64,000 nt of DNA from assembly GCA_030432295.1 (NCBI GenBank), contig JAUIHI010000015.1:62001-126000 (forward strand), written 5' to 3'. Below the pieces are notes generated by a model. It did no database searches. It saw nothing but the letters and a program-made list of their open reading frames with translations, and was not told where the DNA came from. Within the stretch, counting starts at the first letter, position 1, and the number at the start of each line of letters is the position of its first letter. Made by a program: the position numbers and the translations under genes. Of this stretch, positions 36,739-47,030 are shown in pieces. The DNA is from Anaerolineae bacterium (GTDB taxonomy: Bacteria > Chloroflexota > Anaerolineae > Caldilineales > Caldilineaceae).

Positions 36739-37233
36739 CTATTCTTCTGCCTCAAACGTACGCAGGAAGTTGACGACCTCCCAGCGCTGCCCTTCGCTCA
36801 GAATCTCCTCCCAGGCCACCATCGCTGTGCCTTCCCGTCCGTGGGTGATGATGTAAAAGAGTGCGCCGTCGGACAATCCCTGGACGTGGGCCGTGTGGAA
36901 GTCCGCCGGTTTGGGATTCAGACCCGCCGCAGCCGCACCATCTCCCTTCCCCTCTGCCCCGTGACAGGCCGCGCAGTTTTGGCTATACGTTGCCTGGCCC
37001 GCGGCGATGGACCCATCGAAAACAGCCACAGGATTGGTCACCGCCGCCGCTTCCTCTGGGATGGCGTGGGCTGCTGCCATAGCGGCGTGGTCGGACGTAT
37101 CCATCCCGGAATGGCCGGTCATTCCCGTCATCCCCATCATTCCCGCGTGTTCATCTCCGGTGGCAGAGGCTGCGCAGCCCGCCATCACAAAGACGAGCAT
37201 CAGAAGCAAACCAACAATTTGATAGCGAACCAT
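36739..37233 (-). CDS. Lipid-anchored monohaem cytochrome c with Met/His-rich N terminus
   Basis: 164 residues. Lipobox VFVMAGC, then an unusual Met/His segment (HAGMMGMTGMTGHSGMDTSDHAAM), then a class I cytochrome c domain with CAACH haem site (NCAACHGAEGKGDG) and a likely Met ligand in GTAMVAWEEILSEGQRWEVVNFLRTF. Electron carrier outside the membrane; the Met/His stretch could bind copper. ATG at 37233 has a GGGA site; a GTG at 37260 overlapping the upstream cytochrome is possible. Same operon as the next cytochrome. Confidence 0.9.
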   Translation of the reverse strand: MVRYQIVGLLLMLVFVMAGCAASATGDEHAGMMGMTGMTGHSGMDTSDHAAMAAAHAIPEEAAAVTNPVAVFDGSIAAGQATYSQNCAACHGAEGKGDGAAAAGLNPKPADFHTAHVQGLSDGALFYIITHGREGTAMVAWEEILSEGQRWEVVNFLRTFEAEE

Positions 37234-37252
37234 TTCATCTCCCTGTGACCTG

Positions 37253-37699
37253 TCAGTCACTTCGTTGTTGTGTGACCTGTGTCTGAAATTCGATTTCCTG
37301 CTTGCCCCAAAAAGTCTTAATGTACTCCAAAACTGCGACCCGCTCCGCCTCTGTCAGAATCTCCCCGTAGGCGGGCATAGCGCTGTTGGGCATTCCGCCG
37401 CCATTGGCGATCACTTCCAGCAATACCTGATCCGGGTGATGCCAGGTGTGGCCGCTGCCGTCGTGGGGCGGCGCGGGATAGACGCCGTTGACCGGTACTT
37501 TCCAGTTGGGCTGGCCTTCCCCCTTCACCCCGTGACAGGCAGCGCAGTTGGCGTCGTAGACCCGCTTGCCCGTCGCCAGTTGCTCCGGGTCAGTTGGACT
37601 CTCCTGGGCCGCCGGACTTCCGCCGCACCCACCCAATAGTACGAGAAGCAAGAATGTCAGCGCGAATTTGTGTGTCGAACGACGAGTAGAATCTGTCAT
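37253..37699 (-). CDS. Lipid-anchored monohaem cytochrome c
   Basis: 148 residues. Signal peptide with lipobox LLGGC, then one cytochrome c domain: GKRVYDANCAACHGVKGEGQPNWKVPVNG and a probable Met ligand in NGGGMPNSAMPAYGEILTEAERVAVLEYIKTFW. It donates or accepts electrons at the outer face of the membrane. First gene of a two-cytochrome operon, 19 bases before its partner, divergent from the Met-rich secreted protein. Confidence 0.92.
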   Translation of the reverse strand: MTDSTRRSTHKFALTFLLLVLLGGCGGSPAAQESPTDPEQLATGKRVYDANCAACHGVKGEGQPNWKVPVNGVYPAPPHDGSGHTWHHPDQVLLEVIANGGGMPNSAMPAYGEILTEAERVAVLEYIKTFWGKQEIEFQTQVTQQRSD

Positions 37700-40736: not shown

Positions 40737-42005
40737 TCATCTCCTTAGCCCCCACCAGACCGTCAACGTCTCGCCTGTGAAGCCCGCCAACAGCGCAGCC
40801 ACCCCCAGCGTCACTCCGTGCAGCCCGGCCAACGGCAGCAGCAGCAGGGCCAGCAAAATCGCCACCAGCCGTACCGGTCCGCTGGGAGCCATCACCCGCG
40901 TGCGCCGCTTCCAATAGGCCAGCCCGTGCAGCCAGGCCCGGAAAGCCACCACCGGTGAAAAAGCCACGAACAGACGCAGGGGCGCATAGGCGTGGGCGGC
41001 AAAAGCCGGGTCCACACCGATGGCGGTCAGGAGCAGGAAATCCCGCACGGGCGTCCAGAAAAGTACCAGACTGATGCTGACCGAAAGCAGTCCGCAGAGT
41101 GCGATAAAACGGCGGGTATAGAACAGCCCCGGATCGTCGTCGTGGAAGGTGGCGGGCAGGGTGCGCATTTCGTTCTGCCAGCGAAAGGGCCACTGGCCCA
41201 GGCTGTAGACTACGGCCAGCACGGCCAGGGCCAACGCGCCGTCGCTCTGGCGGGCGATGAAAAGATTGATCAGCGGGCGGCTGAACTCCTGCACCAGTGT
41301 CATCAGCGCCAGGGGCCAGACAAAGCCGACGATCTCCCGGTAGCGCAGCCCACCGTCGCCTTTTCCTTCCCTTTCCTCCAACTGCACATAGCGGCGAAAA
41401 CCCAGGGTCAGCACCCCCAATTCGGTGACAGCCATCCCCACCGCCGCGACGACAGGCAACAGAATTGGTCGCGCTTGAATCCACCCGACCGGCAGCAGAG
41501 CAAAGACCAGCCCGATTCCCACGGCCACGCTGGCTGTGGTGGCATAGCTGATCACCGCCGTGCGTTTGACCCGAATCAACTGACCGGTCAGGAGCAGGGC
41601 CAGACCCCGTATGGGGATTATCGGCAGCGTCCACAGCAGAACTGTGCGCACCAGATCGCCCAACGCCGGGCCAATGCTGTGCAGATCGTCGATGATCCAG
41701 CGCCCGGTGGGTGTCACGGCCAGGGCTATCTGAAGCAGAATCAGCAGGGCTGCCGCGGCCAGCACATAGCGCAGGGCTTTGCCGAAATCCCGCCGGTTGG
41801 CCGCCAGCACCAGACTCATCGGCGCGGACTGGGCGATGGGGGCCATAATCAGCAGCACCAGCCCCCAGGCCAGGCCATAGGCGGCCAGGGTATCGGTGGC
41901 GTTGGGCAGGCGGGCCATCCCCGCGTTGAGAAACTGACCGCCGAATTCCTGGATGACAATTGTGAGGACGAGGGGCAGGAGAAAGCGGCTGAGGCGAAAG
42001 TACAT
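40737..42005 (-). CDS. Bacterial homologue of the progressive ankylosis protein (ANKH-like transporter)
   Basis: 422 residues with about twelve membrane helices. Along its length it matches human ANKH as I remember that sequence: FLLPLVLTIVIQEFGGQFLN and LAAYGLAW near the start, WPLALMTLVQEFSRPLINLF, YSLGQWPFRWQNEMR, FWTPVRDF...IGVDPAFA, and at the end GLHGVTLGVAALLAGFTGE. ANKH exports ATP, pyrophosphate and citrate in animals and is a distant relative of MATE-type flippases. What the bacterial protein exports is unknown. It converges on the sensor kinase gene; upstream are inverted repeat units. No Shine-Dalgarno seen. Confidence 0.8.
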   Translation of the reverse strand: MYFRLSRFLLPLVLTIVIQEFGGQFLNAGMARLPNATDTLAAYGLAWGLVLLIMAPIAQSAPMSLVLAANRRDFGKALRYVLAAAALLILLQIALAVTPTGRWIIDDLHSIGPALGDLVRTVLLWTLPIIPIRGLALLLTGQLIRVKRTAVISYATTASVAVGIGLVFALLPVGWIQARPILLPVVAAVGMAVTELGVLTLGFRRYVQLEEREGKGDGGLRYREIVGFVWPLALMTLVQEFSRPLINLFIARQSDGALALAVLAVVYSLGQWPFRWQNEMRTLPATFHDDDPGLFYTRRFIALCGLLSVSISLVLFWTPVRDFLLLTAIGVDPAFAAHAYAPLRLFVAFSPVVAFRAWLHGLAYWKRRTRVMAPSGPVRLVAILLALLLLPLAGLHGVTLGVAALLAGFTGETLTVWWGLRR

Positions 42006-42221: not shown

Positions 42222-43613
42222 TCACATTCTCCCCGCGCGCACGAGCAGCGCCCGCGCGGCGCGGTTGTGGTTGTCGGTCAGTGTAGGCAGATCGACGGAG
42301 TGGGGCACGCCGTCTTCCACCAGCACCCGCCCGTTGACAATCGCCAGGTCCACCGGCTGGGGATGACAGAAGACCAGCGCCGCCACCGGGTCGTGGACTG
42401 CGCCGCCCGCGTAGGTGAGGGCGTTGAGGTCGAAGGCGATGATGTCCGCGGCCATCCCCGGCGCTAGGGAGCCGATGTCGTCTCGGCCCAGGACAGCCGC
42501 GCCGCCGAGGGTGGCAATCTCCAAGGCTTCCCGCGCTGTCATCGCCTTGGGATTGCCCATCACCCGTTGCAGCAGGAGCGTCTGGCGCACTTCGGCCAGC
42601 AGATGGCTGCTGTCGTTGGAGGCGCTGCCGTCCACGCCCAGGCCCACAGGCACGCCCGCATCCCGCATGGCCCGCACCGGCGCGATGCCGCTGCCCAGAC
42701 GCATATTGCTGTTGGGGCAGTGGGCCACGCCGGTATGGGTCTGGGCAAAATTGTCGATCTCCGCCTGATTCAGGTGAACGCAGTGCGCGTGCCAGACGTC
42801 GTTGCCGGTCCAGCCCAGTTCTTGCGCGTAGTCGCCGGGGCGGTGGCCGAATTTCTCCAGGCAGAAGGCTTCCTCGTCCTGGGTTTCGGCCAGATGGGTG
42901 TGCAGGTGGACGTTCATACGCGGGCCAAAGGAGCGGGCCAGGGCCGCGCTCTCCCGCATCAGGTCCGGGGTGACGCTGAAGGGGCTGCACGGCGCGAGCA
43001 CCACCCGGCGCATGGAAAAGCGGCGGGGGTTGTGGAAGCTCTCCACCACCCGACGGCTATCAGCCAGAATCACCTCTTCCGGCTCTGTCACCCGATCCGG
43101 GGGCAGACCGCCCGCGCTCTCGCCCAGACTCATCGACCCACGCGCGCCGTGAAAACGCACGCCCACCCGCTCCGCGGCCTCGAACTGATCGTCCAGTCGG
43201 GAACCGTTGGGCCAGAGGTAGTGGTGGTCGCTGCTGGTGGTACAGCCGCTCAGCAACAGTTCGGTCAGGGCCAGTTGGGTGCTGATCTGCACATCCGCCG
43301 GTGTCAGTTCGGCCCAAATCGGATAGAGGGTCTTGAGCCAGTCAAAGAGCACCGCGTCCTGTGCGCCGGGGATGACCCGCGTCAGCGTCTGATAGAAGTG
43401 GTGGTGGGTGTTGACAAAGCCGGGTAAGACCAGTTTGCCCCGGGCGTCGATGCGCTGCTTGACTTCGGCAGAGAGATGGACGGGCAGGTCTGCGCTGCGC
43501 CCCACCCAAAGAATCTCCCGCCCTTCGATGATCAGCGCTCCATCCGCGATCTCCCTGCGTTGGGCGTCCATTGTGACGAGGGTTGTGGCGTTGTGCAGAA
43601 GGGTGAGTGGCAT
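42222..43613 (-). CDS. 8-oxoguanine deaminase-like amidohydrolase
   Basis: 463 residues, cytoplasmic metal-dependent deaminase of the AtzB/TrzN/guanine deaminase group. Metal ligands in FVNTHHHFYQTL, HLHTHLAE, HCVHLNQAEI and GLGVDGSASNDSSH; also AHCPNSNMRLGSGIAPVRAM. The THHHFYQTLTR motif and length resemble characterised 8-oxoguanine deaminases (release of ammonia to give urate), but other purine or triazine substrates cannot be excluded. AAAGGA precedes the ATG. Confidence 0.85.
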   Translation of the reverse strand: MPLTLLHNATTLVTMDAQRREIADGALIIEGREILWVGRSADLPVHLSAEVKQRIDARGKLVLPGFVNTHHHFYQTLTRVIPGAQDAVLFDWLKTLYPIWAELTPADVQISTQLALTELLLSGCTTSSDHHYLWPNGSRLDDQFEAAERVGVRFHGARGSMSLGESAGGLPPDRVTEPEEVILADSRRVVESFHNPRRFSMRRVVLAPCSPFSVTPDLMRESAALARSFGPRMNVHLHTHLAETQDEEAFCLEKFGHRPGDYAQELGWTGNDVWHAHCVHLNQAEIDNFAQTHTGVAHCPNSNMRLGSGIAPVRAMRDAGVPVGLGVDGSASNDSSHLLAEVRQTLLLQRVMGNPKAMTAREALEIATLGGAAVLGRDDIGSLAPGMAADIIAFDLNALTYAGGAVHDPVAALVFCHPQPVDLAIVNGRVLVEDGVPHSVDLPTLTDNHNRAARALLVRAGRM

Positions 43614-44524: not shown

Positions 44525-45418
44525 TCATTGCAGCGGAAGAACCGTCGGCAGCATATCTGCTTCGCCCAGCATCTCGGCGATTTCGTAGTTGGAGAGGGGT
44601 CGCTTCTTGCCCGACAGGGCCACCAGCGCGGCTTCCATCATATTTGTGCCAAAGCTGCGTCCGTCCAGCCGGGGGGTGCTGGTGACCAGATGGCTGACAC
44701 CCCGCGCCCGTAACATTTCCACGTCCTCGGCTGTGGTGGTGTTGGTGACAATAATTTTGCCTGTCATATCTTCCGGCAGGTTCTTTTTTACATAGAGAAA
44801 ATCGTCGGCGACAATGCTGGCCCAGGCGAATTGGTCGTGATATTTGGGTACAATTTCGTTCTGCTTGTCGCCGGTGGGGTAGAGCCATTCAAAGGGAATC
44901 CGGCCCATAATCGGCAGCAATACACGGGCCACCCGATGCAGAGCGGAAAGGCTGTGGAGGAAGATCGGCACATCCAGCCCAAAGGCCAGATCGCCAAAGC
45001 GGACTTCGTAGCCTTCGTCGAGAAAGCCCCGGGCCATGTGATAGCGGCCCACCCCCACACAGAAAAGTGCCCGTTTGGGTGCAATGCCCGGCAGCAGTTT
45101 GTCCAGGTGACGGGCGGTCTGACGCTCCACCACCCCACGCACACCACCCCCATCCACCACAGGCGTCTGCACCCCATCCACCAGTTTCGCCACCGAATAG
45201 AGTGGATGATAGCGTCCATCCACCTCCAGTCCCAGGTCTGCGCCGCCAAAGCCAAAGGCGTCCACCTGGCCGTCCATCTCTTGAAAGAGCTGGCGCATCT
45301 TCTTCTGGTCACCGTCGGTCCCAATTCGTTCCAGGACAATCGGTTGGCCGAGGAGGGTAGTCTCGACCCGTTTGTCCCGTTTGCTGCTGCCCAGGCTGAT
45401 GGATACGGCACGTTTCAT
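44525..45418 (-). CDS. Conserved protein of the family often labelled quinate 5-dehydrogenase
   Basis: 297 residues. It starts MKRAVSISLGSSKRDKRVETTLLGQ and has GFGGADLGLEV, TPVVDGGGVRGVVERQTA and RGVSHLVTSTPRLDGRSFGTNMMEA. I recall similar proteins annotated as quinate 5-dehydrogenase, but I see no convincing catalytic signature, so the label should be treated with care. AAGGAGG before the ATG at 45418 fixes the start; the frame open upstream runs through a hairpin. Confidence 0.62.
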   Translation of the reverse strand: MKRAVSISLGSSKRDKRVETTLLGQPIVLERIGTDGDQKKMRQLFQEMDGQVDAFGFGGADLGLEVDGRYHPLYSVAKLVDGVQTPVVDGGGVRGVVERQTARHLDKLLPGIAPKRALFCVGVGRYHMARGFLDEGYEVRFGDLAFGLDVPIFLHSLSALHRVARVLLPIMGRIPFEWLYPTGDKQNEIVPKYHDQFAWASIVADDFLYVKKNLPEDMTGKIIVTNTTTAEDVEMLRARGVSHLVTSTPRLDGRSFGTNMMEAALVALSGKKRPLSNYEIAEMLGEADMLPTVLPLQ

Positions 45419-45450
45419 GGGAGCCTCCTTCTGTGTGGAAAGGTGGCAAA

Positions 45451-45495
45451 GTGAAGGGGTGGCAAAGTCACTGACGATTCCTGGCACCCCTTCAC
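45451..45495 (-). terminator. Inverted repeat after the alpha-oxoamine synthase gene
   Basis: GTGAAGGGGTG and its complement (11 bp) around a 23-base loop with GGCAAAGTC-like words; it begins 5 bases past the stop of the upstream gene. Confidence 0.55.
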
Positions 45496-45499
45496 CCTG

Positions 45500-46786
45500 T
45501 CATGCAATCACTCCTGCTTCTCGCCCGGCGGCGATGAAAACGTCCAGGGCGAAGTCGATGTCTTCCGGGGAATGGGCGGCTGTCACATTGGCGCGCAGCC
45601 GGGCCGCGCCTTCCTGGACAGCGGGCGGCAGCACAGGCAGGACAAAGACGCCGTGATCCTGGCAGTACTTTGTCATCTGCATGGCGATCTCTTCTGTGCC
45701 CACCATAATCGGCACAATCGGCGTGACTGTGACGCCCGTATCAAAACCGGCCGCTTGCAGACCGCCGATAAAGTGGCGCACGTTGCGGGTGAGCACTTCG
45801 TTGCGCTCGATGCCCTCATCTTCCAGCACGTGGAAGGCTTCGATAATCGCGCCGGCCACTGCGGGCGGCAGGGCCGCGCTGAAGACGAACCCCCGGGCCG
45901 TGTGGCGCAGGAATGTGATCATCTTCTTGTCTCCGGCGATGTAGCCGCCGATGCCGGGTATCGTCTTGCTCAGGGTTCCCATCTTCACATCAATCGATCC
46001 GGGCATGTCGTAGTACTCCTCGATCCCCCGCCCGTTGGCCCCCAACACGCCCAAGCTGTGGGCTTCGTCCACCATCAGCCGGGCGTTGTAGCGGTGGCAA
46101 AGCTCCACTGCCGCGGGCAGGTTGAAGATGTCCCCATCCATCGAGAAGACCGCGTCGGCCACCACCAGCTTGCCCGCGCCTTCGGGAGCGCGGCGCAGTT
46201 GTCGTTCCAGATCGTCCATATCGTTGTGGCGATAGCGCTTGAATTCGCCCCGGGCCAACACACAGCCATCCACAATACTGGCGTGGTTCCACTTGTCCGA
46301 AAGCACCCAATCCCCCCGGCCTACAAGCGTGCTGATGGTAGCCAGGTTTGTCACATAGCCCGAACTGTAGACGATTGCATCTTCCCGTCCCACAAAGTTG
46401 GCAATCGTCTGCTCCATCTGGGCGTGCAGGTCCAGCGTGCCACCCAGAATGCGCACGCCGTGGGTTCCCGCGCCATATTTGTCTGCGGCGGCTTTGGCTG
46501 CGGCCACAATGCGCGGGTGGTTGATTAGGCCCAAATAGGTGTAGGTGGCAAACATCAGCTTGCGCTTGCCCTCTGTGACCACCCAAGGGCCGTCCAGCTC
46601 CTCTACAGGCTGAAAATAGTAATAGTTCTCGTCTTCCTGAATTTTGGTGACCCGATCCCACCAGGCGTCGATCTTCCAGGAGAAGGGGTCGTGGCCTGCG
46701 CCGGCCCCATTGAGCGCTGTTTCTGCCAAGGCTTCGGGCGGTGCTGGCGCGTTCTGGGCCTGAAGCCCTGCTACGTTTTTGACCAT
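45500..46786 (-). CDS. PLP-dependent alpha-oxoamine synthase (BioF/KBL/SPT family)
   Basis: 428 residues. The PLP Lys lies in MGTLSKTIPGIGGYIAG and the Schiff-base Asp region in LMVDEAHSLGVLGANGRG; TYTYLGLINHPRI and GTHGVRILGGTLDLHAQME are typical of the family. Such enzymes condense an amino acid with an acyl thioester: 8-amino-7-oxononanoate synthase, glycine C-acetyltransferase or serine palmitoyltransferase. No bio gene lies nearby; the N-terminal extension (about 50 residues, YYYFQPVEELDG) leans towards the KBL/SPT side. AAAGGA before the ATG at 46786. Confidence 0.85.
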   Translation of the reverse strand: MVKNVAGLQAQNAPAPPEALAETALNGAGAGHDPFSWKIDAWWDRVTKIQEDENYYYFQPVEELDGPWVVTEGKRKLMFATYTYLGLINHPRIVAAAKAAADKYGAGTHGVRILGGTLDLHAQMEQTIANFVGREDAIVYSSGYVTNLATISTLVGRGDWVLSDKWNHASIVDGCVLARGEFKRYRHNDMDDLERQLRRAPEGAGKLVVADAVFSMDGDIFNLPAAVELCHRYNARLMVDEAHSLGVLGANGRGIEEYYDMPGSIDVKMGTLSKTIPGIGGYIAGDKKMITFLRHTARGFVFSAALPPAVAGAIIEAFHVLEDEGIERNEVLTRNVRHFIGGLQAAGFDTGVTVTPIVPIMVGTEEIAMQMTKYCQDHGVFVLPVLPPAVQEGAARLRANVTAAHSPEDIDFALDVFIAAGREAGVIA

Positions 46787-47030
46787 GAGATAATTCCTTT
46801 TCGCAATTATTGCGAACAGTGAGTTTACCGGATGGCAAAAGGTCACCGGCAAACCAATAAAAGTGGCAAGCCGTGTCATAGGAAACGAAATAGAAGAAGA
46901 TGTTTCTATGATTCGGCAGGAAGAATGCAAATAGAATAACGCAAGTAGAATAACGGGAAGCCGTTCCCGCGGTGTTGAAATTTATCGAATTGTAGCCTAA
47001 AGCTATTGGGTTCGCAAAGCCCTGCAAGGG

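Follow-up and report, generated by a model that had tools for sequence, protein, structure and literature searches.

The open reading frame at positions 40737–42005 (minus strand) of the window, the whole 64,000-nucleotide stretch of Chloroflexota DNA analysed here, was originally predicted to encode a bacterial homologue of human ANKH, which both a review and an evolutionary paper on ANKH treat as a vertebrate protein. This raises two questions: does the gene belong to the ANKH family or to the ordinary MATE or MurJ transporters, and what might its product do in a bacterium? The reading frame is intact, with an ATG start and 422 codons followed by a stop, and on the basis of Pfam, BLASTP alignment to human ANKH and phylogenetic trees we annotate the product as a putative ANKH-family membrane exporter of 422 amino acids.

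Assignment to the ANKH family

The window protein matched the Pfam ANKH model (PF07260) with an E-value of 1.7e-39 and 136.5 bits (cut-off 22), covering profile positions 10–344 of 344; the highest Pfam ANKH score in a relative was 212.6 bits. The MatE model (PF01554) gave 21.6 bits (E = 2e-4), under its cut-off of 24.9 and 115 bits below the ANKH score. None of the MurJ and polysaccharide-flippase models in Pfam matched, even with E-values as high as 1 allowed, and nothing in NCBIfam scored above a cut-off. In profile searches, the protein goes with ANKH and not with MatE or MurJ, so the outcome named beforehand as a refutation of the prediction did not arise.

Human ANKH, the sole animal sequence used, was entered by hand and checked against Pfam and against disease positions. 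It scored 743 bits against the complete Pfam ANKH model, which ends at human residue 345, and carried the expected residue at P5, M48, L244, W292, C331, S375, F377 and G389, all the single-residue disease positions checked, from a list drawn mostly from PMC13356900. Given this score, and disease-position residues at the right numbers, the hand-entered sequence should match the true one exactly or nearly so. BLASTP aligned it with the window protein at 32% identity over 435 residues (E = 1e-69), reaching human residue 444 and thus extending past the C-terminal limit of the Pfam model. The ANKH motifs that had suggested the homology are all present and align in order with the human protein; they include WPLAL (residues 230–234), SRPLINLF (242–249), FWTP (316–319), IGVDPAFA (329–336) and HGVTLGVAALLAGFTGE (396–412). 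A chance motif match is ruled out, because the BLASTP alignment, with its ordered motifs, and the Pfam profile both returned such low E-values.

As paralogues we defined Chloroflexota MATE-like proteins with weak matches to the ANKH or MatE Pfam models or to a profile of the bacterial ANKH copies. Ranked against this human sequence, 33 bacterial copies gave E-values from 9e-83 to 1e-46, compared with 6e-9 for the best paralogue. Identity to the human sequence was 29–37% for the bacterial copies, with 37% for the best, and 18–25% for the paralogues, mostly over partial length. With the bacterial profile, the weakest true copy listed scored 548 bits and the best paralogue 156 bits, the gap between them being empty, and E. 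coli DinF, MdtK, MurJ and WzxE did not match. A maximum-likelihood tree including E. coli MOP proteins and 26 paralogues recovered human ANKH and all bacterial ANKH copies as one group (98/96), and a second maximum-likelihood tree with 10 paralogues gave the same group at 100/100, in agreement with the profile search. An ordinary MATE or MurJ protein is thus ruled out by Pfam, the E. coli MOP comparison, the identity ranking and the trees. The proposed homology is borne out: the window protein aligns full length with vertebrate ANKH (SLC62A1, TCDB 2.A.66.9, PF07260), has motifs in common with it and falls in the same clade. We consider it almost certain that the gene encodes a genuine bacterial ANKH-family protein (SLC62, TCDB 2.A.66.9) within the MOP/MATE superfamily.

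Plasmid sequences held no match to the window protein or human ANKH, and with a relative as query yielded distant cyanobacterial proteins only. Two of these, Anabaena WP_015364246.1 and Leptolyngbya BAY59392.1, are distant relatives with 84 and 100 bits against the bacterial ANKH profile; the Anabaena protein, at 36.3 bits, lies above the Pfam ANKH cut-off. Both sit with the paralogues in the tree, outside the ANKH clade. On these cyanobacterial plasmids (L104:1790-4260 and L105:1810-4257), a cysteine-synthase/SbnA-like gene lies directly 5′ of the distant ANKH-like membrane protein. Leptolyngbya and Anabaena belong to different orders, and the two neighbours possibly form a small biosynthesis-and-export pair.

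Architecture and conserved residues

The N- and C-terminal halves of the window protein aligned with each other in hhalign with a probability of 98.2% (E = 4e-14, 201 columns), and the internal repeat is visible by eye when QEFGGQFLNAGMAR is set against QEFSRPLINLFIAR. Such an internal duplication is expected for the MATE/MOP fold. The hydropathy profile has 11 peaks. An AlphaFold model made from only seven sequences had a mean pLDDT of 42, too low to support structural claims, and single-sequence and profile searches of solved structures found no related chain. The paralogues can be aligned with the ANKH copies over their full length in a profile comparison (E = 9e-52), so they presumably have the same two-lobed architecture. 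Human ANKH begins with a longer N-terminus than the window protein, contains an insertion past about residue 310 and ends in a C-terminal tail, ~45 residues long, that the window protein does not have.

We compared individual residues across human ANKH, 32 bacterial copies and 28 paralogues, using window numbering throughout. The columns in which the human residue agrees with at least 90% of the bacterial copies and with few or no paralogues include T15, Q24, H109, P184, W230, Q239, W276, E279, F287, F316, W317, P342 and P391. T15, E20, Q24, H109, W276, E279, F287, F316 and W317 are absent from the paralogues. Conservation counts mark a first-lobe motif at residues 20–32 (EFGGQFLNAGMAR; 41910–41948, minus strand), in which E20 and Q24, equivalent to human D28 and Q32, distinguish the ANKH group. 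Its repeat partner is a second-lobe motif at residues 230–252 (WPLALMTLVQEFSRPLINLFIAR; 41250–41318, minus strand), delimited by the human alignment and conservation counts, where W230, Q239, R243, N247 and R252 are common to the window protein and human ANKH. The same two lines of evidence pick out the FWTP motif (41049–41060, minus strand). The basic residues R243, R356 and R379 are shared by human ANKH and every one of the 32 bacterial rows, and roughly one quarter to one third of the paralogues have them too; this pattern would be compatible with an anionic substrate and is no proof of one.

Several positions of medical interest in human ANKH have equivalents in the window protein. In the segment WQNEMR (residues 276–281; 41163–41180, minus strand), W276 aligns with human W292 and E279 with human E295, and the tryptophan is present in every bacterial row (32/32) and in no paralogue (0/28). 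The human W292R substitution is a craniometaphyseal dysplasia allele. Human C331 and F377, both disease positions listed in PMC13356900, correspond to window C304 and F349 (cysteine in 27/32 and phenylalanine in 28/32 bacterial rows), and human L244 corresponds to L232 (leucine in 23/32). Near the C-terminus, E412, the last residue of HGVTLGVAALLAGFTGE (residues 396–412; 40770–40820, minus strand), lines up with human E440, where the mouse ank allele is truncated. The equivalents of W292, C331, F377, L244 and E440 are retained, in contrast to N-terminal P5 and M48, which are sites of chondrocalcinosis mutations and are not conserved.

Distribution and gene neighbourhood

The genome containing the window has one ANKH copy. 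Within its order, 35 of 46 genomes match Pfam ANKH, 34 of them strongly (80 to 213 bits), and copies occur in 7 of 17 genera; named relatives with the gene are metagenome-assembled genomes of Caldilineaceae and Litorilinea. Across a phylum sample of 400 genomes, the window's own genome alone gave a strong match. The sampled class contained one genome of another family with a strong copy (180 bits with Pfam ANKH and 548 bits with the bacterial profile), and the other sampled genomes of the class and phylum had weak paralogues only, at no more than 156 bits with the bacterial profile. No ANKH copy was present in 14 control genomes, and no relative of the window protein was found in viral contigs.

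Identity among the relatives carrying the gene is 73–90% within the window's genus and 43–55% between genera. Comparison of the window gene with its closest relative gave dN of 0.066 and dS of 0.416. Purifying selection thus acts on the gene, and hence the protein does something useful for these bacteria. Since Pfam would label such proteins automatically as ANKH, bacterial members are presumably already visible in databases; a search of the open-access literature found no paper on them. The window protein adds a member to an already described family.

Upstream of the gene on the same strand, after a gap of 216 bases, lies an 8-oxoguanine deaminase gene (42222–43613, minus strand; NCBIfam NF006055, 689.4 bits, cut-off 532). 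On the 3′ side is a convergently oriented pair encoding a sensor kinase and a response regulator. Both flanks recur in several congeneric genomes and are absent in other genera, some of which have MFS transporters next to the ANKH gene. Beyond the genus level, no neighbouring gene keeps its place next to ANKH, and genomic context therefore does not name the substrate.

Other gene arrangements were seen in the window and around related copies. In two related genera, an McrBC-like pair (an AAA/Mrr_N protein and an McrBC-family protein) lies upstream of the ANKH gene in the same direction (L075:5370-9103, L077:11909-15360 and L078:11129-14424), with another gene intervening in L077 and L078; PADLOC models did not match the McrC-like proteins of these loci. 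Within the window, a BioF/serine-palmitoyltransferase-like enzyme (45500–46930), whose best NCBIfam model is SerpalmtaseCFB at 410 bits (under the cut-off of 640), adjoins a conserved protein of ~300 amino acids (44525–45487) with no NCBIfam match. Two small tandem ORFs at 36739–37699 carry CxxCH haem-binding motifs and are cytochrome c-like, with lipoprotein-like N-termini.

Function and origin

Human ANKH releases citrate, ATP, succinate and malate, and ATP and citrate are favoured over pyrophosphate as its substrates (PMC7371198). By analogy, the reading we prefer, with about even confidence, is that the window protein, as a true family member, would be an exporter of small anionic metabolites: a two-lobed protein of 12 helices in the cytoplasmic membrane, probably working by alternating access. 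To judge from human ANKH, the cargo released from the cell may consist of nucleotides or of organic acids, citrate among them, and R243, R356 and R379 would help to hold the anion. The level of human–bacterial identity counts against anion export, because transporters that are 29–37% identical often differ in substrate. The missing C-terminal tail and the lack of a cross-genus neighbour that hints at a substrate also weigh against it.

In a rival reading, the protein belongs to the family and carries a different metabolite, which in this genus might be connected with purine degradation. The upstream deaminase, whose product is urate, scores well above its cut-off and is adjacent and on the same strand in the four same-genus relatives where it was found. 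The gap between the two genes argues against such a link, as does the restriction of the pairing to this one among the ANKH-carrying genera, which may reflect mere inherited gene order. We regard a different substrate of this kind as unlikely.

It is equally improbable, in our estimate, that the protein functions as a MATE-type multidrug exporter or lipid flippase despite its ANKH-family sequence. Membership of the same superfamily, the weak MatE match, the full-length profile alignment with MATE-like paralogues and the MFS transporter neighbours in some genera are all consistent with this. Set against them are a MatE score under its cut-off and far below that of ANKH, the failure of the bacterial profile to match the four E. 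coli transporters, and the tree, in which the paralogues are set apart at 100/100.

As to where the family arose, each direction of transfer between bacteria and eukaryotes seems unlikely to us. Acquisition of the Caldilineales gene from a eukaryote would fit the restriction of strong copies, within the sampled class and phylum, to one order and one genome of another family, and the long stem between the ANKH family and the local MATE paralogues in both trees. However, the bacterial copies differ by up to about 60%, so such an event was not recent, and in the free tree human ANKH is placed among the bacterial copies and not the reverse, although this placement is not significant (AU p = 0.265). 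Just as tentatively, bacteria may have been the source of eukaryotic ANKH, in which case the Caldilineales copies would span the base of the family and might have kept an original function in anion export.

Mutations in human ANKH cause diseases of bone and joint mineralisation, craniometaphyseal dysplasia and chondrocalcinosis, which makes the transporter medically important, and the view of its substrate has shifted from pyrophosphate to ATP and citrate. A bacterial relative of 422 residues in which several disease positions are kept offers a small target for structure determination and reconstituted transport. With no related chain found among solved structures, bacterial ANKH could become a simpler stand-in for the human transporter, and it provides a way to ask what role the family plays in cells without bone.
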